From an uncultured Roseicyclus sp. (GTDB taxonomy: Bacteria > Pseudomonadota > Alphaproteobacteria > Rhodobacterales > Rhodobacteraceae): DNA of 64,000 nt. The notes under the pieces are model-generated. The model worked only from the letters and a program-made list of their open reading frames with translations. It was not told the origin of the DNA and did no database searches. The DNA lies in contig CANMRT010000002.1 in the NCBI GenBank assembly GCA_947500415.1, positions 310,001 to 374,000 of the forward strand, written 5' to 3'. A program made the translations under genes and the position numbers. Shown here piece after piece: positions 12,522 to 50,452 of the stretch (the first letter of the stretch is position 1; each line of letters opens with the position of its first letter).

Positions 12522-13544
12522 CTAAGCGGCGTGCTGCGTGACGTGACCAAGTGCTTGCAGAACCACCTCTGGCCCCGCCCCATCGCGGTGAGCCTGTTCC
12601 GAAAGCGTGCGTTTCCAACCCCGCGCGCCGGGACGTCCCGCGAATAGGCCCAACATATGCCGCGTGATCTGGTTGAGACGCCCACCCGCGCCAAGATGCG
12701 TTTCGATATATGGCAACATCGCAAGCGCCACGTCCTCTGCGCACCGGCCCGGTGCAGCTTCGCCAAAAATGGCGGCATCGGCGCTCAAGAGAATCTCAGC
12801 GGGTGTGTGATAGGCCGCCCGACCAATCATAACACCGTCTATTCCTTCCGCCAGATGCCCCTGCGCTTCATCCAGCGTAGCAATGCCACCGTTAATCGAA
12901 AGATGCAGCTCCGGGAATTCGCGCTTCATGCGGTAGACGAGCGGATAATCCAACGGCGGCACATCGCGGTTCTGCTTCGGGCTCAATCCCTCCAACCACG
13001 CCTTGCGGGCATGGACCGTCATGCGTTTGACACCTGCCCCGACCATCGCCTCGATGAAACCAGGCAAGACAACTTCAGGGTCCTGTTCATCCACACCAAT
13101 GCGGCATTTTACGGTGACCTCGACCGGGCTTTGATCCAGCATCGCCTTCACGCAATCGGCCACGAGGTCGGGCTGACGCATCAGAACTGCCCCGAAGCAG
13201 CCCGACTGCACCCGATCTGACGGGCAGCCGACATTCAGGTTGATCTCATCATACCCATACCTGCCCGCAATCCGGGTTGCCTCGGCTAGTTCCACCGGGT
13301 CAGACCCGCCCAGTTGCAGGGCAACAGGATGCTCCGCGTCATCGTATTCCAACAGGCGCGCCGCATCACCACGCACAACCGCAGCAGCCGTCACCATCTC
13401 GGTGTACAGCAATGCCTCACGCGACATCAGCCGGTGGAAATACCGACAGTGCCGGTCCGTCCAATCCATCATCGGGGCAACAGAGAGGCGCGCGGCGGCG
13501 CGGACGTTAGGAGTGTCCAATCTCAAGCCTTCCACACCATTCAA
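12522..13544 (-). CDS. dusA: tRNA-dihydrouridine synthase A
   Basis: This FMN-dependent enzyme of 340 residues reduces uridines in the D loop of tRNA. The N-terminal RLSVAPMMDWTDRHC and the NVGCPSDRVQSGCFGA motif with the catalytic Cys are both present. The 5' part of dusA is a known target of integrative elements, which enter at the codons for PMMDW and bring a replacement 5' end. A direct copy of this 22-bp core occurs at 43925-43946 within a stray dusA-like fragment, so the present 5' end may have been supplied by an inserted island. The start is taken as 13544, without a clear SD. Confidence 0.95.
   Translation of the reverse strand: MNGVEGLRLDTPNVRAAARLSVAPMMDWTDRHCRYFHRLMSREALLYTEMVTAAAVVRGDAARLLEYDDAEHPVALQLGGSDPVELAEATRIAGRYGYDEINLNVGCPSDRVQSGCFGAVLMRQPDLVADCVKAMLDQSPVEVTVKCRIGVDEQDPEVVLPGFIEAMVGAGVKRMTVHARKAWLEGLSPKQNRDVPPLDYPLVYRMKREFPELHLSINGGIATLDEAQGHLAEGIDGVMIGRAAYHTPAEILLSADAAIFGEAAPGRCAEDVALAMLPYIETHLGAGGRLNQITRHMLGLFAGRPGARGWKRTLSEQAHRDGAGPEVVLQALGHVTQHAA
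13457..13478. repeat. Left copy of putative dusA attachment core (22 bp)
   Basis: The + strand reads CCGTCCAATCCATCATCGGGGC within codons for APMMDWT of dusA. It matches 19 of 22 bases with 43925-43946 in the same orientation, including a 12-bp identical block CCAATCCATCAT. The two copies bracket 30.4 kb containing the whole catabolic cluster. Confidence 0.6.
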
Positions 13545-13590
13545 CCCAACTTATGCAAAACCATTCGCCGTGATACCGTTGCCAAACAGA

Positions 13591-15264
13591 TCACTCAAGT
13601 TGAATGGTCTTGCAATGTGTGCCGCCTTTTTGTGAAGACGCCGTCACTGTGATCCGCGCGTCCGTCCTGTCAGCCTTCACAAGCCATTCCACCTTCTTTG
13701 ACACCGCAGACCATTGCTGACCCCAATTGGAATAGGCGTAACGGCGTTCGTTGCGACCGGCCAGATTTCCCAGTTTGACCGACGGTGGGTTCATCACCAC
13801 GTCCGCACCTTCGCAAACAACGGCAAGCTCCACCGGTTTTGCGACCCCGTTTTTGACGGCCACATCGGACAGGTTTGTTGGCAGGTACCCATGGTTTGAA
13901 ACCACTGCGGTGACACGGTGAAGATCTGCCCCGAGCGCCTCAGCCTTCAGGCTGTCTACCGCAACGCGCGGCGCGGCGGCGGCATGGCGTAGGTTGAACA
14001 GAACGTTCTTTTGGCAAATCTCTTCGAGCATGGTGCCCGGTGGATTCCGGTAGCTCCAGATATAGACCATGCCGCCGACCTCGACCGGGCCCAGTTGCGG
14101 ATGGTCAAAGGTGGTCCATGGCCTGAAGCCATGCTCTCCCACATTTTCGACCACCCAATTGTGGACCAGCCGCTGGGTCGCAGCATCGCGTGGGCCTAGG
14201 TTGTAGTAACCTTCCTTGGGCACACCCGCGGTGCGTTCCAAATCCCAAAGCTCAGTCGCGAAGGAGATGATACCAATCTCTTCATAGGTCCAGTCGGTCA
14301 GTGAACCGTGACGGGCCTTTGACTTGTCCGGAGTGAAATCTTCGTACACGGATATCGTCGGATAGCCGGTCAGGCGTTCCCCAACCTCGCCGAGCGCCTT
14401 ATAGAGCGACAGGTCAGGCGGGCTCATGGCGCTGTCGGGTTCCAGCATCGAAGGGCGCAGGATGATGCCGCCATGGGTGTGGTAGGCGCACATGCCGGTG
14501 ATGTTGGGATGGCCCAGGATCACATCGCGCATCCCCGCCGCCTCGGGCTCACTGAAAGGATAGTCGCCCGCGCCGTATTCTTGCGGGGTCCAATTCGTCG
14601 GGAAGTTGCGGTTCATGTTCCCGTCTTGCTGCATCTCGATCTGCACGTGAACGCCGTCGTAATTCCGGATCATGCCTTCGGGATAGAGGCGGAAGTAGTT
14701 GCCGCCTTCCTCGCCCGGTTCGCGCTGGACCATGATGTCCGGGTTTCCGGCATCGCATTTCCACTCACCCTTGGTGTCGGGAACCCGCATTTGCACGATG
14801 TAGCCATCACCTGTGATGTCTTGCGGAATCAAGCCTTCGATACGGTCCTCGCCGGGCAGGAAACGGCCGTTTCCGCACCATGGATGGTAGGGCGCTGTCA
14901 TGGCGTATTCGGCGCCATCGGGGTTCACGCGCGGGATGATGTAGAACACCTGTCCGTCAACAAGGCGCGTTACCTCTTCGTCCTCGCCGTATTTGGTCAG
15001 CAGGTACCAACACGCATAAAGCGCGGTCGCGCTGGTCGCGTGTTCTTCGGCATGGATCTGCGCGTCGATGTAGAAGCCCGGCTTTTCAAGTGCCGGGCCG
15101 GTTTCAGAGTTAGTGATGGTCATGAACCAGACGTCCCTGCCCCGGAAACTCTTGGCGATGGAAGTTAGCGTGCACAGGCTCGGATAAGCGTCCGCCAGCG
15201 CATGAAGGTGCGCCGTCATGGCGTCGTACGTGTGGTAGGTATCGAAGGGGATTTGAACGGTCAT
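13591..15264 (-). CDS. M14-family zinc carboxypeptidase
   Basis: This metallocarboxypeptidase of the M14 family is 557 residues long. Zinc ligands are visible as His71 and Glu74 in QIHAEEHA and the later His in YHTHGG near 262; an ExW-type segment with a catalytic Glu follows near 340. No signal peptide is seen, so it should act in the cytoplasm on an imported substrate. The C-terminal 150 residues form an extra domain not needed for the M14 fold. The ATG at 15264 has AAGGAG 7 nt upstream. It is the last gene of a leftward 13-gene operon and starts 10 bp after the M20 peptidase gene. Confidence 0.85.
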   Translation of the reverse strand: MTVQIPFDTYHTYDAMTAHLHALADAYPSLCTLTSIAKSFRGRDVWFMTITNSETGPALEKPGFYIDAQIHAEEHATSATALYACWYLLTKYGEDEEVTRLVDGQVFYIIPRVNPDGAEYAMTAPYHPWCGNGRFLPGEDRIEGLIPQDITGDGYIVQMRVPDTKGEWKCDAGNPDIMVQREPGEEGGNYFRLYPEGMIRNYDGVHVQIEMQQDGNMNRNFPTNWTPQEYGAGDYPFSEPEAAGMRDVILGHPNITGMCAYHTHGGIILRPSMLEPDSAMSPPDLSLYKALGEVGERLTGYPTISVYEDFTPDKSKARHGSLTDWTYEEIGIISFATELWDLERTAGVPKEGYYNLGPRDAATQRLVHNWVVENVGEHGFRPWTTFDHPQLGPVEVGGMVYIWSYRNPPGTMLEEICQKNVLFNLRHAAAAPRVAVDSLKAEALGADLHRVTAVVSNHGYLPTNLSDVAVKNGVAKPVELAVVCEGADVVMNPPSVKLGNLAGRNERRYAYSNWGQQWSAVSKKVEWLVKADRTDARITVTASSQKGGTHCKTIQLE

Positions 15265-15274
15265 TGCAGGCTCC

Positions 15275-16627
15275 TTATGAGCGGCCAAAGTGGTCCATGA
15301 TGGCGGCAGCGTATTTGATGCCCTGTATGTACTTATCGATATGAATGTTCTCGTCGGGCGCGTGAAGATTGCAGCCGGGATTGGCAAAACCGGTCAGCAC
15401 GCAAGGGATCCAGACATGTTTCAGGATTGCCCCTTCTGCGGAGACACCGTTGACGATCGGGGGCTCTCCGTAGACCTCATGGGCGGCCGCGATGATCGAC
15501 TGGCTGATGTCTTCGCGCGCCGAGATCTTGTAAGGTTCTTCCACACGAGGCTCGCCGATGACCTCAATGTTGTCAAAGCCTTGATCCACCAGATGAGCCT
15601 TAAGCTTTGCCATCGCTTTGGCCGGAGAGATGTTGGGGATCAGACGGAAGTCCATCCGCACGCGTGCTTCCGCCGGCACAATCGTTTTGGTGCCTTTGCC
15701 GATATAGCCGCCCGTGATGCCTTGGATATTCGCCGTTGGCTCGTAGGTGCGTGCCCGCAAAGCATCCACACCATCGCGTTCCAATGCGAAGGCATCAACG
15801 CCCATTTCATCCTTCAACAGATTGAAGTCGATGCGTGCGGCCTTGTCTTCCAGATACCCCATGTCTTCTGGCGTCGGCTCATAGAGCCCTTCGGCCCAAT
15901 CGGGGATCAGGATGTTCTTGTCGCGATCCATGATCGTGGCGAGTGCATGGACTAGATCCCACACCGGGTTCGGCACCAAGGGCGCGTTCAGGGAATGCAC
16001 ATCCGTGCGCGGGCCACGCGCGACCAGTTCTACGAACAGCACCGATTTCAGCCCAAGCGAGACGTCTGGGACTTCAACCCCGATCTCGAGCGAGCCATCG
16101 AGGCAATGCATCCCATCGGCTTCCAGCATCTTGGCGTTCTTCTTCGCCCACGGACCAAGGTTTGGAGAGCCGATTTCCTCCTCTCCTTCAATCAGGATTT
16201 TGAGTCCCACCGGCACTTCACCCCGCACCGCAAGAAACGCCCGAGCGGCCATGTTGAACGCCAAAACGCCCGATTTGTTGTCCGTCGCGCCGCGCCCATA
16301 CAACACGCCATCCACCACCGCGCCGGACCATGGGCCACCGTGGGTCCAAGCCTCAATCGGTTCGGGTGGTTGGACATCATAGTGCGAGTAGCACAGGAGC
16401 GTCTTGGACGAGGTCGATGGGATCTCACCGTAGACAACGGGTGGACCGTCTTCCAACTCATGGAATTCGGCTGGCAAACCATCGCGGTGCATCATGTCAC
16501 GGATCAACGCCGCGCAGTCGCGCAATCCGATGTCTTGGGCGGAAACGGACGGCTGCTGCACGAAGGCCTGTAAATCCGCGACGAAATCGTCTGCGTGGGC
16601 GTCGATGTAATCGTAGATCTCTTTCAC
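15275..16627 (-). CDS. M20-family dipeptidase/deacylase
   Basis: This is a dinuclear zinc amidohydrolase of the M20 family (CNDP/PepV-like), 450 residues. The motifs are SHYDVQPPEP near residue 82, GRGATDNKSG with the bridging Asp near 117, the catalytic Glu-Glu in EGEEEIGS near 150, and a dimerisation insert. The start is a GTG at 16627, which overlaps the upstream TGA (GTGA) and has AGGAG 8 nt upstream; an ATG at 16654 lies inside the neighbour without a site. It probably cleaves a dipeptide-like or N-acyl bond in a product of the imported compound. Confidence 0.88.
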   Translation of the reverse strand: MKEIYDYIDAHADDFVADLQAFVQQPSVSAQDIGLRDCAALIRDMMHRDGLPAEFHELEDGPPVVYGEIPSTSSKTLLCYSHYDVQPPEPIEAWTHGGPWSGAVVDGVLYGRGATDNKSGVLAFNMAARAFLAVRGEVPVGLKILIEGEEEIGSPNLGPWAKKNAKMLEADGMHCLDGSLEIGVEVPDVSLGLKSVLFVELVARGPRTDVHSLNAPLVPNPVWDLVHALATIMDRDKNILIPDWAEGLYEPTPEDMGYLEDKAARIDFNLLKDEMGVDAFALERDGVDALRARTYEPTANIQGITGGYIGKGTKTIVPAEARVRMDFRLIPNISPAKAMAKLKAHLVDQGFDNIEVIGEPRVEEPYKISAREDISQSIIAAAHEVYGEPPIVNGVSAEGAILKHVWIPCVLTGFANPGCNLHAPDENIHIDKYIQGIKYAAAIMDHFGRS

Positions 16628-17325
16628 AGCGGATGCTCCTGCGACAGGTCCCATGCATTCAGACGTTGCCCTGACAACGCGGGATCGCGGCTGCGGGCGA
16701 TATGGGCGAACGCGGGTGCCAGCAGATCAGGGGCGATCCAGTCGGCCTTCAATTCAGGTGGATAATTGCGCTCAGACATCGGGGTGTGCATGGGCTTGCC
16801 CGGCGTCACGGTGCACGAGATTATCCCGTGCGCCTCCCCCTCTAGCGCCAAACATTTCGAAAGCCCTTCAACCGCGTGTTTTGCTGCGCAGTAGGCGGTT
16901 TCATCCACGAACCCCTTGATGCCCGATTGCGACGACACAAAGATCAGCGCTCCACCACCCTGCCCCTTCATGCCCGACCACACGGCTTGGCTTAATTGAA
17001 ACGCCGCCTGAATGCCGACATCGAGCGTGGCGCGAAAGGTCTTGAGGCTCACATCCTCTATCGGTTCGGGCAGCAGGATCGCTGCGTTATGGATCATCGT
17101 GTCAACAGGACCGTCCAGCTGGTTGATGGCGCCCTCGGTGTCCTCAGCATCCGCCAGATCGACCTTGATGAAAGTCGCGTTCACGCCGGCCACGTCCCAA
17201 TCCGGCGCATCGCGATCCATCAGGATCAACTCGGCACCCGTACGACCAAAGACCCGTGCAATGCCAGCGCCAAGCCCGGTCGATGCGCCGGTGATCACAA
17301 CCCTTTGCCCGGCCAGATCCGCCAT
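16624..17325 (-). CDS. Short-chain dehydrogenase/reductase
   Basis: This 233-residue classical SDR has the cofactor motif TGASTGLG at residues 13-20, NAA near 84, a catalytic Ser in FVSSQSG and YxxxK in the AYCAAKH segment. An Asp after beta-2 (LILMDRD) suggests NAD preference. The substrate is unknown. Its start overlaps the stop of the preceding Gfo/Idh/MocA gene (TGATG), and its stop overlaps the M20 start, so it is translationally coupled within the operon. With two Gfo/Idh/MocA enzymes and an epimerase-like protein, it points to oxidation of a hydroxylated, possibly sugar-like moiety. Confidence 0.88.
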   Translation of the reverse strand: MADLAGQRVVITGASTGLGAGIARVFGRTGAELILMDRDAPDWDVAGVNATFIKVDLADAEDTEGAINQLDGPVDTMIHNAAILLPEPIEDVSLKTFRATLDVGIQAAFQLSQAVWSGMKGQGGGALIFVSSQSGIKGFVDETAYCAAKHAVEGLSKCLALEGEAHGIISCTVTPGKPMHTPMSERNYPPELKADWIAPDLLAPAFAHIARSRDPALSGQRLNAWDLSQEHPL

Positions 17326-21272: not shown

Positions 21273-21297
21273 GGTGCTTGTCTTTCAATTATGGCGG

Positions 21298-22706: not shown

Positions 22707-22733
22707 CGGATATCTCCTCGCTTTTGGGCGCTT

Positions 22734-24220: not shown

Positions 24221-24230
24221 CGTTTGATCC

Positions 24231-25433: not shown

Positions 25434-25452
25434 GGAAAGTAACGTTCCCGGT

Positions 25453-26982: not shown

Positions 26983-27102
26983 ATCGGGCCGCTCTCTGCT
27001 CAGGTTTCTTGCGGAACTCTATCGGGTTTTCTGGAAACCAGCCGGTTCGACGCAGGGTGCTTGACTATCCATTTCGCTCGTGTATCCCATTTCTACAAGC
27101 GC

Positions 27103-27114
27103 AATGTCGACAAT
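27103..27114. promoter_or_regulatory. GntR/FCD-type operator 1 between the two divergent operons
   Basis: AATGTCGACAAT matches the palindrome ATTGTCGACAAT at 11 of 12 positions. It lies 42 bp after a TTGACT -35-like hexamer (27061) reading right, and overlaps a TATATT box reading left. It is thus placed to block both operons. Identical-quality sites occur at 38510 and 40793. Confidence 0.6.
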
Positions 27115-27199
27115 ATACTGATGGCAAGGAAGCCGTCGGGTGTCAAACCAAAACATTGCCTGAATTTGCCGCTTCTGCCTGCAAAGGATGCGCTGCCTC

Positions 27200-28063
27200 A
27201 TGCCGAGCCCTGCAACCAACGAGTCCGCCCTAGTCGAGATGGCTGTATCAGGTGTGATCACCACGCCAGCAGTGCGCCCGGGCCAGTATATCCCCTATCC
27301 CGATGGCACGGCGACGGTGCTTCCGGGGATGTATGGGATCACGTACAATGTGCGCTGCGGCGACAGGGCGTTCGGATGGGCGGGCGACCATGTGGAGCCG
27401 GGCGTTTCAATCGACGAAGATGGCGACCTGGGCCGCCACCATGCTTTGCATTACCTCAATTGTATCGGCAACGAAGCGCTCGTGACCTCAGGCATGGCGG
27501 CGGGTGCGCGCGGGATCGTCGTTGGAGAACACGCGCGTATACTGTTGCAATTTGACCGCGACGCCCATGATGTCATGGCCCCCGGCGACCGCATTCAGGT
27601 AATGACCAAAGGTCAGGGTCTCGCGTTGACGCACTACCCCGATGTCGCGCTCAAGAAGATGAGCCCGCGCCTGTTTCACGCCCTTGGCATCACCGAAGCC
27701 GACAGTCGATTGCATGTGAACGTTGCGATGGAATTGCCGATACAGATCATGGGATCCGGCGCCGAGCTGAACTCGGAATACGTCGACCAGGATCTGATGT
27801 CGGGCGACCGCGCGTTGATGGCGGAGCTTGGCATTGATCAAATGCGCCTGGGCGACGTGATTGCCATACGCCACGCCGATCATCATTGGGGCCGGTCCTA
27901 TCGCGAGGGCGCAATCTCCATCTGCCTCTGCATCCACGGGGACAGTGTCATGACGGGCCATGGCCCCGGCATTCTGACTCTGATGACAGCGCGCAATGGC
28001 GAGATCGACTTCACCGTGGATCCTGCCGCCAATCTTGCCACCCTCCTCGACCTCGGAGCCTGA
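27200..28063 (+). CDS. DUF4438-like protein A
   Basis: This 287-residue protein is rich in beta-strands and Gly/Asp turns, and appears to belong to the DUF4438 family (uncharacterised; assignment from memory of the sequence style). A distinctive block GITYNVRCGDRAFGWAGDHVEPGVSI is shared with the next gene product, followed by a conserved 'CxGNEALVTSG' segment. Conserved His, Cys and Asp residues could bind a metal, but no known catalytic signature is seen. It is the first gene of the rightward 8-gene operon. The start at 27200 has AAAGGA about 11 nt upstream; 27188 is an alternative. Confidence 0.65.
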   Translation: MPSPATNESALVEMAVSGVITTPAVRPGQYIPYPDGTATVLPGMYGITYNVRCGDRAFGWAGDHVEPGVSIDEDGDLGRHHALHYLNCIGNEALVTSGMAAGARGIVVGEHARILLQFDRDAHDVMAPGDRIQVMTKGQGLALTHYPDVALKKMSPRLFHALGITEADSRLHVNVAMELPIQIMGSGAELNSEYVDQDLMSGDRALMAELGIDQMRLGDVIAIRHADHHWGRSYREGAISICLCIHGDSVMTGHGPGILTLMTARNGEIDFTVDPAANLATLLDLGA

Positions 28064-28064
28064 C

Positions 28065-28943
28065 ATGAGCATCCAGACCAACGCCTCCGATATCGTAACC
28101 GTGTCCGTCATGGGCAAGGTTGCCAACCCGTCGCTGTCAGGCCTGCCCGCGGAACCCTACCGCCTTGATGCGGACGGCAAAGCGTTCCTTTGGCCCACGT
28201 TCGGCGGGATCGTCTATAACGTGACCGTAGGCGACAGTGCCTTCGGTTGGGCTGGTGATTGCATTCACCCGTCCGTGTCCATCGCACACCCCGATGCCAA
28301 CAAGAACCGGGGCCTGAACGTCTTTGCCTGTGTCGGGAACGAGGCGATGATCACCAGCGGAGCCGCCAAGGGCGCGCGCGGCGTGGTAACGGGCAAATCG
28401 GGGCGGTTTTCCGATCAGGTGATCGTACATTTCGACGTGGAAACACGCCGCAGGATCGCTGTGGACGACAGTATCCTTGTCAAAAGCGAAGGCGTAGGTC
28501 TTGCGGCGCCCGACTGCCCTGAGGTTGCGTTCAAATCCATCTCCCCTGCCCTGTTCGATGCCCTGCCCAAGCGGATGGACGACGGCGTTCTGAAGATTGG
28601 CGTGGTCGCAACTGTGCCGCCCCATTTCGTTGGCGCGGGCGCGGGTCTGACATCCGAAGGCGGATCGCTTCATATCCAATCAACCGATCGGCCGGCCTTG
28701 GCGGAGCATGGCCTCGATCAGCTTCGCCTTGGCGATGTAGTCGCCATTCAGGACACCGACAGCCGATATAACCACGGCTACCTACGCGGCGCGATGAGCA
28801 TCGGGATTGTCGGCCAAACCGACGGTCCTCGCGCAGGCTACGGGCCTGGAATGACGGTGGTCATGGCCGCGCCGTCCGGCCAGCTGGGCTGCTTCGACGC
28901 ACCCGGCACCAATATCGCAGACATCCTCGGGCTTTCGGCATGA
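28065..28943 (+). CDS. DUF4438-like protein B (tandem paralogue)
   Basis: This 292-residue paralogue of the preceding protein shares the GIVYNVTVGDSAFGWAGDCIHPSVSI block, the CVGNEAMITSG segment and the C-terminal GPGM(T)VVMAA stretch. Starting one base after its neighbour's stop and overlapping the next start by ATGA, it is certainly co-translated. Divergence between the two is large enough to suggest a heteromeric pair or two related catalytic steps rather than a recent duplication. Function is unknown. Confidence 0.65.
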   Translation: MSIQTNASDIVTVSVMGKVANPSLSGLPAEPYRLDADGKAFLWPTFGGIVYNVTVGDSAFGWAGDCIHPSVSIAHPDANKNRGLNVFACVGNEAMITSGAAKGARGVVTGKSGRFSDQVIVHFDVETRRRIAVDDSILVKSEGVGLAAPDCPEVAFKSISPALFDALPKRMDDGVLKIGVVATVPPHFVGAGAGLTSEGGSLHIQSTDRPALAEHGLDQLRLGDVVAIQDTDSRYNHGYLRGAMSIGIVGQTDGPRAGYGPGMTVVMAAPSGQLGCFDAPGTNIADILGLSA

Positions 28944-31182: not shown

Positions 31183-31195
31183 AGGAGCCTACGAC

Positions 31196-35034: not shown

Positions 35035-36419
35035 GCGTGCTCGAAACAGTGATTACTGGCGGTGAAGTGCTGCTGCCAGACGGTCTGCATCCCGTCGATC
35101 TGGGGCTGTCGGACGGCAAGGTTGCCGACCTCTACGCGCGCGGCACGGCGCCATCGGCAACCGAAACGGTCGATGCGGCGGGCAAGACGGTTCTGCCTGG
35201 TATTGTCGACATCCATTTCCACGTGCGCGCCCCCGCCTACCCGGAGCGTGGGACCGTTCAATCAGAAACCCGCGCAGCGGCGGCGGGCGGCGTGACCACG
35301 CTTTTCGAGATGCCAATCTCCAAACCCTGCTGCTCTACACCGGAAGAGCTTGCCCGCAGGCGTGATCATTTCTCCGAGAATGCCGTGATCGACTTCGCAC
35401 TCTACGCCGCGCCCGGCGATCTGACCGAGGCCAGCCGGGACCGGATGATCGAGTTGGGTTGCATCGCCTGGAAGATTTTCACCACGCCGTCACCGCCCGG
35501 TCGGGGCGATGAATTCGAAGGGCTGGCCTTTCCAGACGAAGCCGACCAGTTGCGGGCGCTCACCCTGCTGGCCGAAACTGACCTGCCCGTGGTGGTTCAT
35601 GCTGAAAGCGCGCAACTTCTGGCGCATTTCGAAGAAGCGGCCAAAGCGCTCGACCCCGCTGATGCGGCCACTCACAATAAATCCCGCCCGGCGATCTGCG
35701 AGTCTGTTGCCGTCGCCAAACTGCTCACGATGAACATGACGGCGCAGGCGAAATTGCACATCGCCCATGTCACAAACGCCCAGACTGTCGCCGTCCTACG
35801 AGCGTTTGTCGGCACCTCCAACTTCAGTGCGGAGACCTGCCCTCAGTACCTTTTCACGACGGAAGAAGACGTCGCAAAGGCGGGCATTTACGCCAAGGTA
35901 AACCCGCCGATCCGTTTTCAATCCGATCAGGATGCCTTGTGGCAGGCGATCGAGGACGGCGTGATCACCTTCATCACCACCGATCATGCGCCCTTCGCCA
36001 AGGCAGAAAAACAGACCTCTGAAGGCGATTTTCGAGGTGCGCCTCCGGGGGTGCCGGGAATCGAATTCATCGTGCCTGCGATGTTGGATGCCGTCGCCGC
36101 AGGACGATTGAACCTGAAACAGGCCCACGATCTGGTCTGCGCGAACGGGGCCAAGCGATACGGGCTCTACCCGCTCAAGGGCGCGCTACTTCCGGGAAGC
36201 TCGGCCGATGTCACCATTGTCGATCTGAACGGTGAGACCACGTTCAGCCCAAAGACGATGCACACCCATGCCCGAGAGGTCGCGCACCTGTTCTACGGCC
36301 GGACACTGCGCGGGAAGGTCGTGCGGACGGTCGTTGCTGGTAAGACAGTGTTTCTGGATGGAGAGATCTTAGGCCCCGCAGGCGCCGGTCGCTACATCAC
36401 GCCTGCATTCGCCCCCTAG
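35031..36419 (+). CDS. Allantoinase/dihydroorotase/hydantoinase-family cyclic amidohydrolase
   Basis: This 462-residue enzyme opens cyclic amides or ureides. The motifs are DIHFHVRAPAYPERG near residue 60, the Lys expected to be carbamylated in IAWKIFTT near 149, VVHAES near 185, IAHVTNAQ near 243 and TTDHAPFAK near 317. The pattern is that of the allantoinase AllB/hydantoinase group. It is the last gene of the rightward operon, and its stop overlaps the stop of the convergent permease gene. Together with PuuE- and AllA-like proteins in the opposite operon it is the strongest hint of a cyclic-ureide substrate. Confidence 0.87.
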   Translation: MSVLETVITGGEVLLPDGLHPVDLGLSDGKVADLYARGTAPSATETVDAAGKTVLPGIVDIHFHVRAPAYPERGTVQSETRAAAAGGVTTLFEMPISKPCCSTPEELARRRDHFSENAVIDFALYAAPGDLTEASRDRMIELGCIAWKIFTTPSPPGRGDEFEGLAFPDEADQLRALTLLAETDLPVVVHAESAQLLAHFEEAAKALDPADAATHNKSRPAICESVAVAKLLTMNMTAQAKLHIAHVTNAQTVAVLRAFVGTSNFSAETCPQYLFTTEEDVAKAGIYAKVNPPIRFQSDQDALWQAIEDGVITFITTDHAPFAKAEKQTSEGDFRGAPPGVPGIEFIVPAMLDAVAAGRLNLKQAHDLVCANGAKRYGLYPLKGALLPGSSADVTIVDLNGETTFSPKTMHTHAREVAHLFYGRTLRGKVVRTVVAGKTVFLDGEILGPAGAGRYITPAFAP

Positions 36420-37354
36420 CCGTTCTCCTTCAGCCTTGGGTCAAGGAAATCGCGCAGCCAATCGCCGATGATGTTGAACGCCAGTACCGTGAACACGATC
36501 GCCAAGCCGGGGAAGACGGCCATCCACCACTTGTTCGACAACAGGTGATCGCGGCTTTCCGACAGCATGGAGCCCCAGGTGGGCACATCGGGCGGCACGC
36601 CGAGACCGAGGAAAGACAGGGCGGCCTCTGACAGGATCACGCCCGCCACGTTGAACGACGCGATCACGGTTAGGGGCGCGATAATATTGGGCAGGATGGT
36701 GCGAAAGAGGATGGAGAAGGTGCTGTCACCCATGGCGCGCGCGGCCTCCACATATTCCTTTTCCCGAAGCGACAGCGTCTGCGCCCTCACGATCCGCGCA
36801 TAGGTGATCCACTGCCCGATCCCAAGCACAAGGATGATGTTCACCAATCCCGGACCCAGCACGACGAGGAACATGATCGCCAGCAGGATGAACGGAAACG
36901 CCAGCTGAATGTCGCCCAGACGCATGATCACATCGTCGACCCACCCGCCGAAATAGCCCGAGACAAGCCCTGCGATAGTTCCCAACGTGCCACCCACAGC
37001 AATCGCGGCCACACCCACCAAAAGCGAAACCCGCGCGCCATAGAGCAGCCGTGACAGCACGTCCCGGCCCAATTGGTCTGAGCCAAGCCAATAGGTCAGA
37101 TCCCCCGCGGCCGGCATACCCGGTTCGCGCAGGCGCATGATCAGATTTTGGCGGTTTGGATCAAACGGTGCCAACCACGGACCGAAAATCGCAACGAACG
37201 TCACGATCAAAAGGATCAACATACCAATCAGCGCCCAACGGCTTGTGACCATGCTTTCAAACGCACGGCGCAGTTCCTTGCGGCGATAGGATACCGCCAT
37301 GCCACCAACGGCCTGTGTGGAGGTCGCGCTTGGGGCTGGTGTGATCTCGGACAT
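36416..37354 (-). CDS. Dipeptide-type ABC transporter permease (DppC family)
   Basis: This inner-membrane permease of 312 residues belongs to the DppC/OppC family. It has an N-terminal cytoplasmic tail, about six membrane helices, and the EAA loop (EAARAMGDSTFSILFRTILPN near residue 202) that docks to the ATPases. AAGGGG lies 7 nt before the ATG. It forms a leftward pair with the DppB-like gene 10 bp upstream, divergent from the ATPase pair. The substrate is probably an oligopeptide-sized compound used by the flanking catabolic operons. Confidence 0.9.
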   Translation of the reverse strand: MSEITPAPSATSTQAVGGMAVSYRRKELRRAFESMVTSRWALIGMLILLIVTFVAIFGPWLAPFDPNRQNLIMRLREPGMPAAGDLTYWLGSDQLGRDVLSRLLYGARVSLLVGVAAIAVGGTLGTIAGLVSGYFGGWVDDVIMRLGDIQLAFPFILLAIMFLVVLGPGLVNIILVLGIGQWITYARIVRAQTLSLREKEYVEAARAMGDSTFSILFRTILPNIIAPLTVIASFNVAGVILSEAALSFLGLGVPPDVPTWGSMLSESRDHLLSNKWWMAVFPGLAIVFTVLAFNIIGDWLRDFLDPRLKENG

Positions 37355-37364
37355 TGGCGGCCCC

Positions 37365-38339
37365 TTACAGCTTCACGCGCGGATCGAGGCGCGCGTAGAT
37401 CAGATCGACGATCAGGTTGAGAAGGATGAAGATGCCCGCAAGCAGAATGACCGACGCTTGCACGACCGGAATATCGCGCTGGTTGATCGCATTGAACACC
37501 AGCCGCCCGATACCGGGATAGGAAAACACTGTCTCCACCACGACCACGCCGCCCAGTAGGAAGCCGAACTCCAACCCGATCATGGTAACAACTGGCAGCC
37601 ATGCATTCCGCATGGCGTGGTGCATCACAACCCGGCGTTCAGAAATGCCCTTGGACCGCGCGGTACGGACGTAGTCCTGTTGCAAAACCTCCAGCATCGA
37701 CGACCGCACAAGCCGCGCATTGCGCGCCAGCGTGTATGTGCCCACGGCCAATGCGGGCAAAACCATATGGTGCAGCGACGATGGCAGGTTCGCGAAGGCT
37801 TCCGCATATTCGCCCTCAAACAACGGCTCAAGAAATGGGACGTGTCCGGAGATTGGGAACCAACCCAGGTAGAGACCGAAGTAGAGGAACATCATGATGC
37901 CCATCCAGAAATTGGGGATCGATTGACCCAACATCGCGACCGTCATGATACCGCCATCGACTGGCTTTCCCCGGTGTAGCGCCGCGTAGATGCCCAATGG
38001 GATGGATAGTCCAATCGCCAGAACGAGGGAGAAGGCCGTCAACTCAATCGTTGCAGGCATTGCGTCCAGCACGATTTCCATCGCTGGCTGGCGGTAGCTT
38101 AGCGAATTGCCAAAATCGCCCTGAAACACATTCCAGATGTAGCTGGTATACTGAATATAGAGCGGGCGGTCGAACCCGAGCGCGATGCGCGCCGCCTCAA
38201 TCTCTTCCGTCGTCGCATTCTCTGAGACGAAAAGATATGTCGGGTCGCCCCCGATCTGCAGCGAGATAAAGCTGATCAGCGTTACGCCGATCATGACAAT
38301 GATGCTTTGCAACAGCCGCCTGACGAGGAAGGTCCACAT
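37365..38339 (-). CDS. Dipeptide-type ABC transporter permease (DppB family)
   Basis: This 324-residue permease has the classic DppB N-terminus (TFLVRRLLQSIIVMIGV), six predicted helices and an EAA-type loop near residue 210 (YVRTARSKGISERRVVMHHA). The ATG at 38339 was chosen; a GTG two codons upstream at 38345, nearer to GGAGG, is equally possible. It is the first gene of the leftward permease operon, whose promoter lies in the 320-bp gap shared with the ATPase genes and containing a GntR-type operator. Confidence 0.9.
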   Translation of the reverse strand: MWTFLVRRLLQSIIVMIGVTLISFISLQIGGDPTYLFVSENATTEEIEAARIALGFDRPLYIQYTSYIWNVFQGDFGNSLSYRQPAMEIVLDAMPATIELTAFSLVLAIGLSIPLGIYAALHRGKPVDGGIMTVAMLGQSIPNFWMGIMMFLYFGLYLGWFPISGHVPFLEPLFEGEYAEAFANLPSSLHHMVLPALAVGTYTLARNARLVRSSMLEVLQQDYVRTARSKGISERRVVMHHAMRNAWLPVVTMIGLEFGFLLGGVVVVETVFSYPGIGRLVFNAINQRDIPVVQASVILLAGIFILLNLIVDLIYARLDPRVKL

Positions 38340-38509
38340 GGTCACGTGCCTCCGCCATTTATGGGGTCACTGATGGCCGACGGATTCTCTAAAGACGCCA
38401 AATAGTTCATCAAATCTGCCGACAGGTTGAGCCGTCGCTGCACAAGCGACAGCTGGCCGATTGGAGATGCTTGACAATCAATTCGCTGTTCTCCCAATGT
38501 GGATGATAG

Positions 38510-38521
38510 ATTGTCGACAGT
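38510..38521. promoter_or_regulatory. GntR/FCD-type operator 2 in the transporter divergent promoter
   Basis: ATTGTCGACAGT matches ATTGTCGACAAT at 11 of 12 positions. It lies 39 bp after TTGACA (38471). The gap 38340-38668 separates the permease operon (left) from the ATPase operon (right), so one site could control import as a whole. Confidence 0.6.
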
Positions 38522-38668
38522 AGAACAATACCACCATGCCGGCGCACATCGGTCAAGCAGTCAAGTTGATGCGCGCGGCTTTGATTAGCCACTTGGCAAT
38601 GCCGCTGGTCGGCGCAGCACCACGGATTAAAAAAATGGCATATTCCGCATCAGACGTCCCGGCAGCCC

Positions 38669-39682
38669 ATGGCTTCTGACACGCCCGTGCTGGAGGTGCG
38701 TGACCTTCAAACGACCTTTGATCTCAGCAAATCCCTTTCGATTTGCGCGGTCAATGGTGTCAGCTTCTCGGTTCATGCCGGTGAAACTCTGGCAATCGTG
38801 GGTGAAAGCGGATCAGGCAAGTCGGTGACAAGCCTTTCGATCATGGGTCTGTTGCCGAAAGATGTCGGACGGATCTCTGGCGGAAGCATCAAGTTGGATG
38901 GCCGCGACATTACCAACCTAAACGACGCGCAAATGCGCGATATCCGCGGCAAAGAGATCGGGATGATCTTTCAGGAGCCGATGACCAGCCTGAACCCGGT
39001 CCACACTGTCGGCCAGCAAATCGCCGAGATGGTGATCCGACACGAGAAGGTTTCAAAAGCCAAGGCCCGTACGCGCGCGATCGAGATGCTGGATTTGGTG
39101 GGCATCCCGGAACCCACCAGCCGCGTCGACAACTATCCCCATGAGATGTCCGGCGGGATGCGCCAACGCGCAATGATCGCCATGGCGCTGGCTTGTGAGC
39201 CCCGCATCCTGATCGCTGATGAACCGACAACGGCGCTGGACGTGACCATCCAGGCGCAGATGCTCGAACTGATGCAGGATCTCCAGAAAAAGCTCGGCAT
39301 GGCGATTATCTTTATCACCCACGATCTGGGCGTGGTCGCTGAGGTCGCGGACCGTGTGGTGGTCATGTATGCAGCGCAAGTCGTTGAAACGGCCAGCGTC
39401 GAAGACATTTTCGAGAAGCCCAGAATGCCCTACACGGCTGGTCTGTTGAACTCGATCCCGCGCCTTGGCTCGTCCATAAACAAAGTCCGGCTTGAGGCGA
39501 TCCCGGGCAGTGTCCCCGCTTTGACGAATTTGCCGGAAGGCTGCCGATTTCACCCCCGCTGCGCGTTCGCGACAGATCTATGCAAAACCACCGAACCGGC
39601 CCTTGAGACTGCGGATGAAGCCCACATGATACGCTGCGTCCGTTGGCGCGAGTTGAACCTCAATGAACGGAAAGTCTCATGA
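38669..39682 (+). CDS. Dipeptide-type ABC transporter ATPase (DppD family)
   Basis: This 337-residue ATPase has Walker A GESGSGKS at residues 45-52, the signature MSGGMRQR near 163, Walker [13 protein letters not shown] near 182 and the C-terminal oligopeptide-ABC domain with the Cys-rich [14 protein letters not shown] motif. It pairs with the following DppF-like ATPase, whose start overlaps its stop by four bases. Both energise the permeases encoded on the opposite strand. No strong Shine-Dalgarno is seen before the ATG. Confidence 0.92.
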
Positions 39683-40647
39683 GCGCCCCCCTTCTCGAGG
39701 TCGAGGCTTTACGGAAATACTTTCCGATCCGCGGCGGCGTGCTGCAACGTATAGTCAACAACGTGAAGGCGGTTGACGACATCTCGTTCGAGATCAATGC
39801 CGGAGAGGTCGTAGGTTTGGTTGGGGAAAGTGGCTCGGGCAAAACCACTGTCGGGCGCACGCTCTTGCGATTGGAAGAGGCCACCAGCGGAAATGTCCGC
39901 TTTGACGGCACGGATGTGATGGCGCTGAACGCCAGCGACCTGCGCAAATACCGCAAGCGCATGCAGATCATCTTTCAGGATCCCTATGCCAGCCTGAACC
40001 CCCGCGAAAAAATCCGCGAAATCCTGACCCATCCCCTTCGCCTGCATTCTATTGGCGACGTCAGCGATCACGAAGACCGGGCCGTCAAGCTGCTTGAGAC
40101 GGTCGGTCTGGCCCGCGATCACTTGGATCGGTTTCCCCATGAGTTTTCGGGCGGACAAAGACAGCGGATCGGCATAGCCCGTGCCTTGGCAGTGCAACCC
40201 GAATTCATCGTCGCGGACGAGCCCGTGTCGGCCTTGGACGTGTCGATCCAGGCGCAAGTCATAAACCTGTTGGAAGACCTCAAAACCGACCTCAACCTGA
40301 CGATGCTGTTCATTGCGCATGATCTGGGCGTCGTGGAACACATCTGCGACCGGGTGATCGTCATGTATCTTGGACGCGTGATGGAAGTTGGGCCTGTCGC
40401 CGAGCTTTATGCGCGGCCCAACCATCCATACACCAAGGCGCTGCTGTCGGCGGTTCCGATCCCCAAACCCGGTCGCCGAAAGGATCGCGTGGTCCTGAAA
40501 GGCGACATTCCCAGCCCGATCAATCCGCCCTCTGGCTGTGTTTTCAGAACACGCTGCCCCATTGCAACACCGGAATGTGCAACATCTGTACCCGTTCTGA
40601 CGGACGTGAGCGCCGGTCACCTGAGCGCCTGCGTCCACACAACCTGA
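39679..40647 (+). CDS. Dipeptide-type ABC transporter ATPase (DppF family)
   Basis: This 322-residue ATPase has Walker A GESGSGKT at residues 49-56, the signature FSGGQRQRIGIARAL near 156, Walker B FIVADEPVSALD near 175 and a C-terminal C(V)FRTRCP motif. It is the second ATPase of the importer and is coupled by ATGA to the first. A 359-bp gap follows before the regulator gene. Confidence 0.92.
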   Translation: MSAPLLEVEALRKYFPIRGGVLQRIVNNVKAVDDISFEINAGEVVGLVGESGSGKTTVGRTLLRLEEATSGNVRFDGTDVMALNASDLRKYRKRMQIIFQDPYASLNPREKIREILTHPLRLHSIGDVSDHEDRAVKLLETVGLARDHLDRFPHEFSGGQRQRIGIARALAVQPEFIVADEPVSALDVSIQAQVINLLEDLKTDLNLTMLFIAHDLGVVEHICDRVIVMYLGRVMEVGPVAELYARPNHPYTKALLSAVPIPKPGRRKDRVVLKGDIPSPINPPSGCVFRTRCPIATPECATSVPVLTDVSAGHLSACVHTT

Positions 40648-40792
40648 GGCCCGTTGCGGCATGTCAGACTTAGCGCGGGACAGACCTCACAGACAGAACC
40701 GCCCAAAAACAAGGCATTGCGGTTCCCGGCCCTGCGCAACCCGTCAGAAAGCTTGACAAGAATAAATGCCTCACTCCATTGTCTTCTTATGC

Positions 40793-40804
40793 ATTGTCGA
40801 CATT
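40793..40804. promoter_or_regulatory. GntR/FCD-type operator 3 upstream of the regulator gene
   Basis: ATTGTCGACATT matches ATTGTCGACAAT at 11 of 12 positions, 40 bp after TTGACA (40753) and 203 bp before the GntR start. This suggests autoregulation. The rest of the 40648-41006 gap shows no gene. Confidence 0.6.
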
Positions 40805-41006
40805 CCACAATCAGTCAGTCCGGCCGATTTCTTGGATTTGGCACCACACGTTGTATCCAATCGACGTTGGGATTGCTGATTGGTGTTGCCAGTGTCGGGT
40901 TCTCGCCTTTTAACGTCTGCCACCTTTCCGTCGGATGCTGTGTCCTTCCCCAGCGATCTCAGCCTTCACACCGGATGGGCCGTGACGTTTGCAGAGGATC
41001 CCCAGG

Positions 41007-41702
41007 ATGACGAACTTGAAGGCGGCCATTCCCGCCACCCAACCCCATCTGATTGCTCCAATTGAAAATGTGCCCTTGCGCGTTCAGGTCGCCGACAGAT
41101 TGCGCGGTGAGATTTTGAGCGGGCGCTTGCGGCCTGGCACGGGTTTGGTGGAAACGGCCTTGGCCGAGCAACTGAATGTCTCGCGTGCACCGATCCGAGA
41201 GGCGATCCAGATTCTTGAAAACGACGGGCTTGTGGAAACGATTGCCTACAAAGGCAAACGCGTGAAGCCGCTGACCGCGCGCGAAGTGGCCGAGACCTAT
41301 TCCCTGCGTGAAGTGTTCGAAGTTATGGCGGTCACGCGAATTCTCGAGAGCGGAGCGCCGCTCGACGGGTTGTACCAGCATTGCGATGAGATGACCGCGG
41401 CCGCGAAAGCGGGCAACTACGCGGCATTGGTCGCGGCCGACGAAGCCTTCCACCACACGCTCATCCGCCTGGCCGACCACGATTTGCTGATGGCATCGTG
41501 GCGCAACCTCTACATGCGCATTCACCAGATCATGGCGCTGCGCAATCGTGACGAAGAAAACTTGGAGGAAATCGCGGGCAATCACCCGCCCATCGTTCAA
41601 GCCCTGGCCGACCGCGATGCGGAGCGCGCCATGTCCCTGATATCTGAGCATACCCGCATTCTCGCCGCCTTCGACCCGGACGGCATTGTGCAGGCACTGT
41701 GA
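41007..41702 (+). CDS. GntR-family regulator, FCD (FadR) subgroup
   Basis: This 231-residue DNA-binding protein has a winged helix-turn-helix at about residues 20-80 (LRVQVADRLRGEILSGRLRPG, then LAEQLNVSRAPIREAIQILENDGLV) and an all-helical FCD ligand domain. Histidines suited to metal or ligand binding occur in FHHTL near 146 and EHTRI at the end. FCD regulators usually bind short palindromes of the type TTGT-N-ACAA and release on binding an organic acid, fitting the three nearby sites. ATG 41007 has AGAGGA about 9 nt upstream; a TTG six codons earlier is less likely. Confidence 0.92.
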   Translation: MTNLKAAIPATQPHLIAPIENVPLRVQVADRLRGEILSGRLRPGTGLVETALAEQLNVSRAPIREAIQILENDGLVETIAYKGKRVKPLTAREVAETYSLREVFEVMAVTRILESGAPLDGLYQHCDEMTAAAKAGNYAALVAADEAFHHTLIRLADHDLLMASWRNLYMRIHQIMALRNRDEENLEEIAGNHPPIVQALADRDAERAMSLISEHTRILAAFDPDGIVQAL

Positions 41703-41704
41703 CT

Positions 41705-41752
41705 CCGAAGTCATGACACCCAAGGCACCGCTCGCCTGAAGGATGACTTCGG
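41705..41752 (+). promoter_or_regulatory. Long stem-loop between gntR and the binding-protein gene
   Basis: CCGAAGTCAT (41705-41714) pairs perfectly with ATGACTTCGG (41743-41752). The loop contains a second stem AGGC/GCCT. It starts two bases after the regulator stop and is followed by TTCTT. It may act as a weak terminator or an mRNA-stabilising element ahead of the abundant binding protein. Confidence 0.5.
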
Positions 41753-41837
41753 TTCTTACCGAGACCGAACTGACAAAGCCGATAAAAAGACTACCCGCAG
41801 TTCGTTGTCGTTCATCCAACAGGTGAAAGGAAAGCTA

Positions 41838-43388
41838 ATGCCAAGATTACATCATATGCTTGCTGCAGGTGCCGCGAGCCTTGCATTGACCACGGGGGCC
41901 ATTGCACAGGAAGACAGCACGCTTGTTGTGGGTTTGAGTACCGATATCAGCACGCTTGACCCGGCGCCGATTTCGTCGCGCGACAACTCCAATGTTGCAC
42001 GCCACATATTCGCAACGCTCTACACCATGAGCGGCGATGGCGAGGCATTGCCTGTATTGGCCAACAACCTCGAAATCTCGGATGATGGGTTGGAATATGT
42101 CTACACGCTGAACGAGGGCCTCACCTGCCATGATGGAGAAGCGCTGACAGCGGAGGATGCGGCCTATTCGTTCAACCGCGCCGCCGATCCCGAAAACGCC
42201 TTTACGGGCAACACGCCGGGCTTTGTCTTCAGCTCTATCGACTTCCAAAGCGCTGAAGCGCTTGATGATCTGCGCGTCCAGATCAACATCGGCGCGCCGA
42301 ACCCCATCGCGTTCGGCCTGATTGCCGAAGTGTTCATCCACTGCATGGACAGCTACGAGGCGATGACGCTTGACGAAGCGGCCAGCAACCCCGTCGGATC
42401 TGGTCTGTACCGCCTGGCCGAATGGCGTCGCGGGTCTGAGGTCGTGCTTGAGGCCGTCGAAGGCGCTGATGTGGGCTTCCAGAACATCATCTGGCGCATC
42501 ATTCCCGAAGCCTCCACCCGCTCGGCCGAGTTGATGGCTGGCAACGTGGACATCATCACCAATGTCGCGCCCGACCAAATGGATGTGATCAATGCCTCTG
42601 GCGTGGCGGAAGTGAACCCGATCCAGGGGACACGCCGCATGTATGTGGGCTTCAACCTGTCGGAGACCATGGCGCAAGAACCCGGTGGAGATGCGATCCA
42701 GGACCCCGATGTGCGCCGCGCGCTGCAATATGCGGTGGACGTGCCGACCATCTGTTCCGCCCTGCTCAATTTCGAGTGTGAGCGGATGACTGGCATCGTG
42801 AACCCGCCAAATGCCAACCAGAGCATTGAGCCCTACCCCTACGATCCGGAACTTGCTGAACAGCTTCTGGATGAAGCAGGCTGGCCCCGTGGCGATGATG
42901 GCATTCGCTTCTCCATCGCCTTCCAGGCCGGTCAGGGTCGCTACTTGAACGATGCCAATGTCGTGCAGGCCATCGCGCAGTACCTCAGCGATGTGGGTCT
43001 GGATGTTGATTTGCAGATCATGGAATGGTCCAGCGTCTATATCCCGATTATCCGCGAGCGGAACGCAGGCCCGCTCTACTTCATCGGGTCCGGTGGTGCA
43101 CTTTGGAGCCCGCTATACGACATGACCGATCTGGCGGCAGTCGACGCAGGTACCAACTACACCCATTGGGATGATCCGCGCTGGTTCGACCGTTGGGCGG
43201 ACATTGCGGCCGCCGAGACAGAGGAAGAGACCCGCGAAATTGTGGATGAGATGCTTCAGGTCTTCTACGACGACGGTCCTTGGTTGCACCTCTATTTCCA
43301 GCCGGACTTCTATGGTGTGAGCAATCGCATCAACTGGACCCCGCGACCGGATGAAAAGGTCTATCTCTGGGACGCCACGCTCAACTGA
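41838..43388 (+). CDS. Dipeptide-type ABC transporter substrate-binding protein
   Basis: This periplasmic binding protein of family 5 (DppA/OppA type) is 516 residues long. The N-terminal signal peptide is cleaved near residue 23 (TGAIA-QED), and there is no lipobox Cys. The conserved family-5 start, STLVVGLSTDISTLDP, follows. The ATG at 41838 has AAAGGA upstream; an earlier start at 41805 does not. It lies downstream of the regulator and completes the split importer (permeases left, ATPases right). It is followed by a terminator that marks the end of the cluster. Confidence 0.92.
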   Translation: MPRLHHMLAAGAASLALTTGAIAQEDSTLVVGLSTDISTLDPAPISSRDNSNVARHIFATLYTMSGDGEALPVLANNLEISDDGLEYVYTLNEGLTCHDGEALTAEDAAYSFNRAADPENAFTGNTPGFVFSSIDFQSAEALDDLRVQINIGAPNPIAFGLIAEVFIHCMDSYEAMTLDEAASNPVGSGLYRLAEWRRGSEVVLEAVEGADVGFQNIIWRIIPEASTRSAELMAGNVDIITNVAPDQMDVINASGVAEVNPIQGTRRMYVGFNLSETMAQEPGGDAIQDPDVRRALQYAVDVPTICSALLNFECERMTGIVNPPNANQSIEPYPYDPELAEQLLDEAGWPRGDDGIRFSIAFQAGQGRYLNDANVVQAIAQYLSDVGLDVDLQIMEWSSVYIPIIRERNAGPLYFIGSGGALWSPLYDMTDLAAVDAGTNYTHWDDPRWFDRWADIAAAETEEETREIVDEMLQVFYDDGPWLHLYFQPDFYGVSNRINWTPRPDEKVYLWDATLN

Positions 43389-43411
43389 TCCGAGCCTCTG
43401 ATGAAATGAAT

Positions 43412-43442
43412 GGGTGTCCGGCGTTCTGTCGGGCACCCTTTT
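43412..43442 (+). terminator. Intrinsic terminator of the binding-protein gene
   Basis: GGGTGTCC (43412-43419) pairs with GGGCACCC (43431-43438), with one G-U pair, and is followed by TTTT. Confidence 0.75.
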
Positions 43443-43898
43443 CGCTTTCGTTCAGGTGACCCCAGAACTCGTGAATTCAAGCGCCCATATCGGTGAAATC
43501 GAGCCAAAGTGCTTCGGGTCAACGATCCATTCCGAATGCGATACCCATGCGTCTCAGACAGTTGCCGAAAGTGCCCGGACATTGCGGGGATCGTGATCAA
43601 TCATCCTTAGTTCACGCTTGCGCAGCCAGCCAACCATCAAACGACCCACGATGATCTGAGCCCTGCGATATGAGCAAGTTTTGCCGTAGCACTTTAGCCA
43701 GGCTGACATACAACACACTGATATCTGATGGGCGCGGCGAGGCGTACTTTCCGCTATCATACCCTCAGCTTGGTGAGATCTCGGAGCCGTTCCAGACGCA
43801 ACGTTTTCAGTACGATCAAATCCCCACAACCGCCAAACTCCCGACAGAGTTCGCTAGAGGGCGATTTCATGTTGCACACATGGTGCACACGGCGCCAT

Positions 43899-43988
43899 TC
43901 AGCCCGGTGAAACTATGAAGGAACCCGCCCAATCCATCATTGGTGCGCAAGATAATCTCGCTGCCACAGAGGCTGTATTGGTAGGCAT
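43899..43988 (-). pseudogene. Stray dusA 5'-end fragment (attachment-site relic)
   Basis: A 29-codon frame beginning with ATG encodes SVAARLSCAPMMDW, matching the DusA N-terminus (AAARLSVAPMMDWTDRHC), then departs into AGSFIVSPG and a stop. The break point is immediately after the MMDW codons, where dusA-targeting elements recombine. Codon use is A/T-richer (AGA, TTA, GCA) than in the intact gene, while the encoded residues agree, so it is a diverged homologue and not a recent copy. It lies in the same orientation as dusA, 30.4 kb away. Confidence 0.7.
43925..43946. repeat. Right copy of putative dusA attachment core (22 bp)
   Basis: The + strand reads CCGCCCAATCCATCATTGGTGC. It matches the left copy at 13457-13478 in 19 of 22 bases and in the same orientation, as expected for attL/attR repeats flanking an integrated element. 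Confidence 0.6.
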
Positions 43989-46315: not shown

Positions 46316-46334
46316 GTCGTCCTCCTTTAATGCC

Positions 46335-48544: not shown

Positions 48545-48563
48545 GGAATGGGGCCTTTCGCGG

Positions 48564-48614: not shown

Positions 48615-48643
48615 GCACCTTGCGGCGCCCGATTGACCCGAAA

Positions 48644-50433: not shown

Positions 50434-50452
50434 CCCGCCCCCTCATCTGAGG

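Follow-up and report, generated by a model that had tools for sequence, protein, structure and literature searches.

Islands without integrases in tandem array at the 5' end of dusA in an uncultured Roseicyclus, probably mobilised in trans

Integron gene cassettes and staphylococcal pseudo-SCC (staphylococcal cassette chromosome) elements occur as rows of units that lack a recombinase of their own, with the newest unit beside a fixed site. The DNA described here, a window of 64,000 nucleotides from an uncultured Roseicyclus sp. of the Rhodobacteraceae (positions 310,001 to 374,000, forward strand, of contig CANMRT010000002.1, assembly GCA_947500415.1; ‘the window’ means this whole stretch), differs from these in that the core lies in the gene dusA and the units reach tens of kb in size. 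We put at about 70% the probability that the window lies in a row of islands without integrases that were mobilised in trans and stacked, one behind another, at the 5' end of dusA. The window holds the first unit of the array (unit 1, 30.5 kb) and most of the second (unit 2).

Several described systems share parts of this arrangement. The dusA islands and prophages surveyed by Farrugia et al. (2015, PMC4482086) target the 5' end of dusA, are flanked by imperfect 21-bp repeats, supply a new dusA 5' end, and carry highly variable cargo. Their integrase gene is the sole gene common to all 94 islands examined there, and the word ‘tandem’ is absent from the main text. The units here resemble those islands in their insertion at the dusA 5' end, in their imperfect flanking repeats of about 21 bp, and in their replacement dusA 5' end (an in-frame ATG in 11 of 11 loci, unit 1 being truncated and its start codon uncertain); unlike them, they have no integrase, and have ends in common instead. 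Vibrio dusA islands of the IMEVchUSA3 type (PMC8409611) encode an integrase and the directionality factor RdfN, and those studied are mobilised by IncC plasmids; one tandem pair (IEVpaBan1a/b), equipped with integrases, is mentioned, and the island gives dusA a promoter and reading frame. The target and the tandem case are shared with our units, but the integrase and RdfN are not. The microcin H47 island of Escherichia coli (PMC3191183) has attachment (att) repeats but no recombinase of its own, and excises and integrates by means of factors supplied elsewhere; it is like our units in that respect, and unlike them in that it uses another site, is of a single type, and forms no rows. Closest of all are the cis-mobilizable elements, or CIMEs, of the ICESt1 type, characterized in PMC5704250 as decayed integrative and conjugative (ICEs) or integrative and mobilizable elements (IMEs). 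A CIME can be mobilised by an element accreted to it or resident in the same cell. What CIMEs have in common with our units is that integration genes are absent, that an att site is retained at either end, and that they form tandem accretions with other elements at one site; the difference is that here standard ends are common to many units in many genera, and cargo is exchanged between them. The general kind is known, then, but we did not find this form described: among the matches listed in a search of the open-access literature, none reports integrase-less rows at dusA in Rhodobacteraceae. Because dusA islands are defined by their integrase, integrase-based searches would miss such rows, and they would be annotated as ordinary chromosome.

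The target, dusA, occupies 12522–13520 on the minus strand, identified by translation, with its 5' end on the right; its first three plus-strand bases are the stop codon. The usual position of the ATG has no ATG, and translation offers TTG at 13520 as a possible start. The attachment core at the dusA-proximal junction lies inside the gene (13457–13478, minus strand). A second copy had been noticed in a sequence-only reading of the window, and what had been observed of it was reproduced: the minus-strand frame at 43899–43988, stop included, encodes MPTNTASVAARLSCAPMMDWAGSFIVSPG, its homology to dusA ends after MMDW, and its 22-bp core (43925–43946) is identical to that of dusA at 19 of 22 positions in the same orientation. 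The fragment, a displaced dusA 5' end of 29 codons (43902–43988, minus strand), is real. A position-specific scoring matrix, trained on 13 congeneric dusA genes with displaced fragments left out, scores it at 35.4, versus 16.0 for the best unrelated site on the same strand and 15.0 on the other in 150 kb scanned. Nor is it alone. A whole-genome pattern search allowing up to one mismatch found four core sites, all on the minus strand: dusA itself and three displaced copies, at 43.93, 68.53 and 97.23 kb in window-style coordinates. The last two lie beyond the window, 24.6 and 53.3 kb farther out than the first, and they, too, translate as dusA 5' ends (AARLSCAPTMDW and AARLSVAPMMDC). A reversed control pattern had no match in any of 13 genomes.

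Comparison with relatives delimits the inserted DNA. The twelve congeners compared (G001–G012) all carry a dusA homolog. The closest of them are colinear with the window along its left flank, and homology ends at 13478–13500, inside or just before dusA, in 11 of 11 congeners. The DNA upstream of dusA in G005 and G001 has its counterpart here from window-style positions 123.3 and 124.8 kb onward, respectively. In those two congeners this backbone lies 5.4 kb (G005) and 15.4 kb (G001) from dusA, whereas in the genome described here it begins 110 kb away. Because it resumes only at ~123 kb, some 110 kb beside dusA are unshared at this place. Its first 84 kb are split by the displaced ends into three units, which measure 30.5, 24.6 and 28.7 kb; another 26 kb, in which no right end was recognised, separate the third unit from the backbone. 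The 5.2 kb that adjoin dusA in G005 (85% match in G001) were not found in 184 kb of this genome. An empty site can be seen elsewhere in the genus: G012 serves as one for G008, in which the upstream DNA of G012 sits 64.7 kb farther out. For the window itself, the sequence-only reading had predicted relatives in which the DNA beyond 43.99 kb directly follows dusA. No congener has this arrangement: to the right of 43.99 kb a second island begins with its left end, the shared backbone starts only at 123.3 kb, and in G005 and G001, both without the cluster of unit 1, the sequence adjoining dusA has no relation to the 44-kb region, which counts against the single island as it was then drawn.

Each displaced core proves to be a hybrid junction, at which the conserved right end of one island (~110 bp) overlaps the likewise conserved left end of the next (~170 bp), the latter carrying the replacement dusA 5' end. 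The overlap falls at the core in all three displaced sites, which also trained the end models. In the window, the right end of unit 1 (43861–43946, plus strand; arm GCACACATGGTGCACA at 43874–43889) is the top-scoring right end (nhmmer, 99.3 bits), though part of the training set, and it has independent DNA matches in G008, G107, G081, G343 and others. The displaced left end of unit 2 (43929–44097, plus strand; R1, 122.6 bits, likewise in the training set) has its arm, GCTCACATACTGCACA, at 44034–44049. The 118 bp that end in the core (43829–43946) have 77% identity with the far junction of the 50-kb dusA island of the congener G008, whose intact integrase starts beside dusA; and 43770–43946 is 72% identical to the far junction of a 53-kb dusA island in another genus (G107), whose integrase adjoins dusA and is 93% identical to that of G008. 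The earlier claim that the fragment marks the far junction of a dusA-targeted element holds, since the end is shared with these integrase-bearing islands. The accompanying caution, that it might be the end of a different element, was half right: it is the start of a different island, but also the end of the unit 1 island itself.

These ends are widespread. By DNA search, related right ends occur in 12 of 394 family genomes and matches to the unit 2 left end in nine, both counts including this genome, the latter mostly confined to the first 160–166 bp of the query, which was 694 bp long. For the arm repeat GCACAYANNNTGCACA, the window's two best matches, with zero and one mismatch, flank the displaced core, at 43874 and 44034. 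With two mismatches allowed, four are found and 2.7 expected, and since the motif is therefore not rarer than chance, its position and conservation carry the weight. A left-arm pattern drawn from these sites matched 11 times in 84,980 species genomes (five of the matches being its source sites). All are Rhodobacteraceae or relatives by name—including Nioella, Marivivens, Sulfitobacter, Tateyamaria, Roseobacter sp. CCS2 and Rhodalgimonas—and at each of the 11 a dusA core, accompanied by an in-frame ATG, lies 86–87 bp away. A model of 22 left ends (E ≤ 1e-6) matched 38 of the 394 family genomes, 12 of which contain at least two copies on the same strand of a single contig; its training sequences came from at least 10 of the 38, but from only G000 and G407 among the 12. 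The record is five left ends within 43 kb, in G407, and 21 of 30 left-end loci retrieved lie directly at dusA. In ten further genomes the same head-to-tail alternation of the two kinds of end was seen, with exceptions: no right end was recognised in G178, a partial one in G348, G215 and G184, and G209 has no complete unit. The array and its shared ends are firmly established. The single 30-kb island proposed earlier stands as a dusA-targeted unit of 30.5 kb, though as one member of a row.

Both ends are recognised in 18 units of 1.6 to 35.7 kb: 16 from the row survey, two of these (units 2 and 3) from this genome, and one each from G010 and G267. Units 2 and 3 and the 16 elsewhere retain both att ends; unit 1 keeps only its right end in full. 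None of the 18 contains an intact integrase according to a home-made hidden Markov model (HMM) of nine tyrosine recombinases, which recovers known integrases; its sole match inside them is a remnant at 52.3 kb in unit 2. Apart from this 101-amino-acid (aa) remnant, no dusA-associated integrase of the sort found next to dusA turned up in units 1–3. Neither integrase nor remnant adjoins any of 36 distinct left-end sites (flanks mostly of 1.5 kb, up to several kb), whereas seven control dusA loci with other left ends have one, intact in G003, G008, G019 and G107 and decayed in G004, G009 and G011. The HMM also detected none in the 12–20 kb around dusA of G232, G320, G088, G220 and G023. The genes that adjoin left ends are ordinary (by Pfam, for 10 of 24 listed open reading frames): MatE, GNAT, flotillin, aldehyde dehydrogenase, MscS channel, Lrp-type regulator, GcvT-like. 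No conjugation genes were recognised in the cargo inspected, which was that of a few units, no systematic search for transfer genes being made. No parent element combining a left end of this type with an integrase was found. The sequence-only reading spoke of a mobile island whose integrase had been lost; the cluster does lie between dusA and an island end with no integrase, but ‘lost’ is too narrow a word for ends that have none at 36 sites out of 36.

The strongest sign that ends travel as modules between hosts is that near-identical ends enclose different middles. Two units of G314 are 96% identical over their first 306 bp and 99% over their last 258 bp, with unrelated middles and different lengths. 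Units of G190 and G407, which belong to different genera, are 89% identical over their first 518 bp and last 749 bp and differ in between; the dusA genes of these two hosts are only 72% identical, less than their unit ends. In two small units of this pair (L205 in G190 and L203 in G407; 2.5–2.8 kb) the first and last genes, which we take to be CopG-like and AlkB-like, match, and the middle genes differ.

How might such rows arise? In each unit, cargo of any kind would be enclosed between two standard ends, one left and one right. The left end (~170 bp) would comprise the core, a replacement dusA start codon with its ribosome-binding site, and, 86–87 bp from the core, an arm repeat like TTGCACACATACTGCACA; the right end (~110 bp) would comprise the same arm repeat and the core. 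The two look like double-strand-like att sites with arm repeats. A helper, such as an island of the G008/G107 type, would supply a dusA-family tyrosine integrase in trans, which would bind the arms, excise the unit as a circle, and insert the circle into the dusA core. The left end of the incoming unit would then become the new 5' end of dusA, and the old one would be pushed outward as a stray fragment, so that repeated insertion would build a row with the newest unit beside dusA. The 30-kb catabolic cluster would have arrived with unit 1, whose left arm was probably deleted later. That the units are mobile, and mobilised in trans, is what we infer as the best explanation of their shared ends and missing integrases; the formation of circles, the order of insertion, and the arrival of unit 1's cargo by this route are likewise suggested by the arrangement. 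Integrase-bearing and integrase-less units seem able to accrete at one site, for in G314 a G003-type integrase gene (68% identical) lies beyond the second unit, outside the units. The row there (L206, 4074–18349) is mixed: its first left end follows ACAACAT-type repeats, as are found before G003-type integrases.

The order of ends may reflect age. Left-end scores drop from first to last in eight of eight rows whose stretch includes dusA, and also in G000 and G420; they are flat in G314 and rise in G209, where the stretch did not include dusA. As an indicator of age the fall gives weak support, because the first end codes for dusA and is under selection. In ten other rows the crossover codon specifies W at every first site (10 of 10) and G at every later one (13 of 13), but the three sites here have W, W and C.

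Several observations weigh against this account. The left end of unit 1 (13479–13605) matches the left-end model with 24 bits over positions 1–47 of 170 only, that is, over the core and dusA codons, and its arm is not recognisable; probably this end is truncated, and deletion of the arm after insertion would explain it, together with the lack of an ATG in dusA and with the last gene of the cluster ending ~110 bp from the core. The remnant in unit 2 is what a decayed ordinary island might carry. No vehicle has come to light: left ends were not found in viral contigs, and 43850–44110 has no match in plasmid and phage collections. Of the 12 integrase matches in this genome, none of the nine compared is of the dusA type; as to the remaining three, one is the remnant and two, judging from their size and ubiquity, are probably Xer. 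The last two points concern the cluster. In seven congeners that have it, no recognisable dusA end lies beside it in the flanks examined; and at third codon positions its similarity between this genome and others is not unusual (identity in the cluster is raised for other genome pairs too, five pairs being without a value), and is therefore no independent sign of recent transfer.

From these last points comes the most serious rival, that the array is real but the cluster is not its cargo: cargo and left arm would have disappeared from an old dusA unit, and ordinary recombination or rearrangement would have brought the cluster in. The sequence-only reading saw, correctly, one complete cluster with its regulator and importer between the repeats. 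The stretch 13612–43392 is colinear, at 78–80% DNA identity, with one cluster in seven of the twelve congeners, but at other loci, in five different chromosomal contexts, with nearly equal boundaries (~13610 and ~43390) and with neither dusA end nor right end in the flanks examined. This tells against the cluster as the private cargo of a dusA island, as do the missing left arm of unit 1 and the unremarkable identity. With dusA in G005 and G001 next to unrelated sequence, both of the outcomes that the sequence-only reading had named as refuting it have been observed. A search with nhmmer for the dusA fragment in 30 loci around the cluster or dusA yielded, besides the G004 junction already known, only two matches, of 8.6–8.7 bits. 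Two near-core matches in cluster homologs (G004 C1:86610 and G010 C3:671759) were rejected as coding sequence of another gene. Since the cluster occurs in several contexts without dusA ends, it must move, or be moved, by more than one route. Against separate arrival, the cluster fills unit 1 almost exactly, beginning ~110–130 bp from the left core and ending ~470 bp from the right end; it is absent from the closest congeners (G001, G003 and G005) and from G007 (83% complete) and G008; and other units have comparable metabolic cargo directly behind their left ends. On balance we consider separate arrival unlikely, if far from negligible, and it seems likely that the cluster reached dusA via the dusA-island system.

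A second rival holds that the units are ordinary decayed islands, classic CIMEs, each once autonomous, that lost their integrases separately and whose shared ends are leftovers of selection on dusA or of history. Decayed integrases do lie at dusA in G004, G009 and G011, unit 2 has its remnant, and tandem CIMEs are an established outcome (PMC5704250). Separate decay accords poorly with 36 left-end sites lacking even a remnant in the flanks examined, with near-identical ends around unrelated cargo, and with units as small as 1.6 kb. Moreover, pairwise homology between left ends stops at nearly the same place, most often after 170–190 bp, and runs beyond 220 bp in only three of 336 pairs. We judge this explanation rather improbable. 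That the 22-bp resemblance is mere chance, finally, for which nothing speaks but the shortness of the match, can be rejected on the matrix score well above background, the two additional copies in line, and the homologous flanks on both sides.

If integrase-less units do move in trans, marine Rhodobacteraceae are trading whole catabolic operons at a site that can be predicted, and displaced dusA ends form a readable, ordered record of insertions. Rows with standard ends, varied cargo and no recombinase of their own suggest a little-noticed route for trading sets of genes, and the end models built here can be used to find further units and to test helper integrases directly. Going further, and only tentatively, we can picture a cassette-like class of element in marine Rhodobacteraceae/Roseobacteraceae: recombinase-less pairs of att ends that enclose any operons of 1.6 to 36 kb, queue at dusA, exchange cargo between identical ends, and leave the newest unit to express dusA—integron-like capture on a housekeeping gene, with borrowed integrases. 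We would not yet bet on it.

The cargo of unit 1, the catabolic cluster, spans 13591–43388 (Pfam; colinear in the seven congeners). It includes peptidases of the M14, M20, M32 and M24 families, two aminotransferases, amidohydrolases, Gfo/Idh/MocA, DHDPS-family and Ldh_2 proteins, an Opp-type importer (36416–40647 and 41805–43388), and a GntR-family regulator (40989–41702). From its position upstream, the catabolic operon may be what dusA is read from. Two adjoining DUF4438 genes with overlapping frames inside the cluster (27188–28943, plus strand) are probably a duplication.

The cargo of unit 2 runs from 44098 to the end of the window and on to the junction at window-style 68458–68566, and comprises an ABC importer module, the integrase remnant, a phytochrome-like kinase, TctA/TctB and a CoA-transferase. 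The importer module (44640–51866: RraA-like, cupin, SnoaL and ABC genes) is found on the 3' side of dusA in G009 and G010, and elsewhere in G001, G005, G008 and G011. The remnant (52289–52594, minus strand) is the C-terminal 101 aa of a tyrosine recombinase, scoring 24 bits with PF00589, below the Pfam cut-off of 27.1, and E=1e-14 with the HMM. It is 70% identical in DNA to the decayed piece beside dusA of G004, and at most 79% identical to congeneric integrase genes elsewhere, whose open frames are of ~230–300 aa. The kinase gene (52655–55237, minus strand) encodes a phytochrome-type HWE histidine kinase with PHY, GAF, PAS_2, HWE_HK and receiver domains. Near the end of the window, an SLT_2 transglycosylase-like gene (63250–63990, minus strand) is 81–91% identical in DNA to single copies that lie far from dusA in several congeners, and this stretch is far more conserved than its surroundings.

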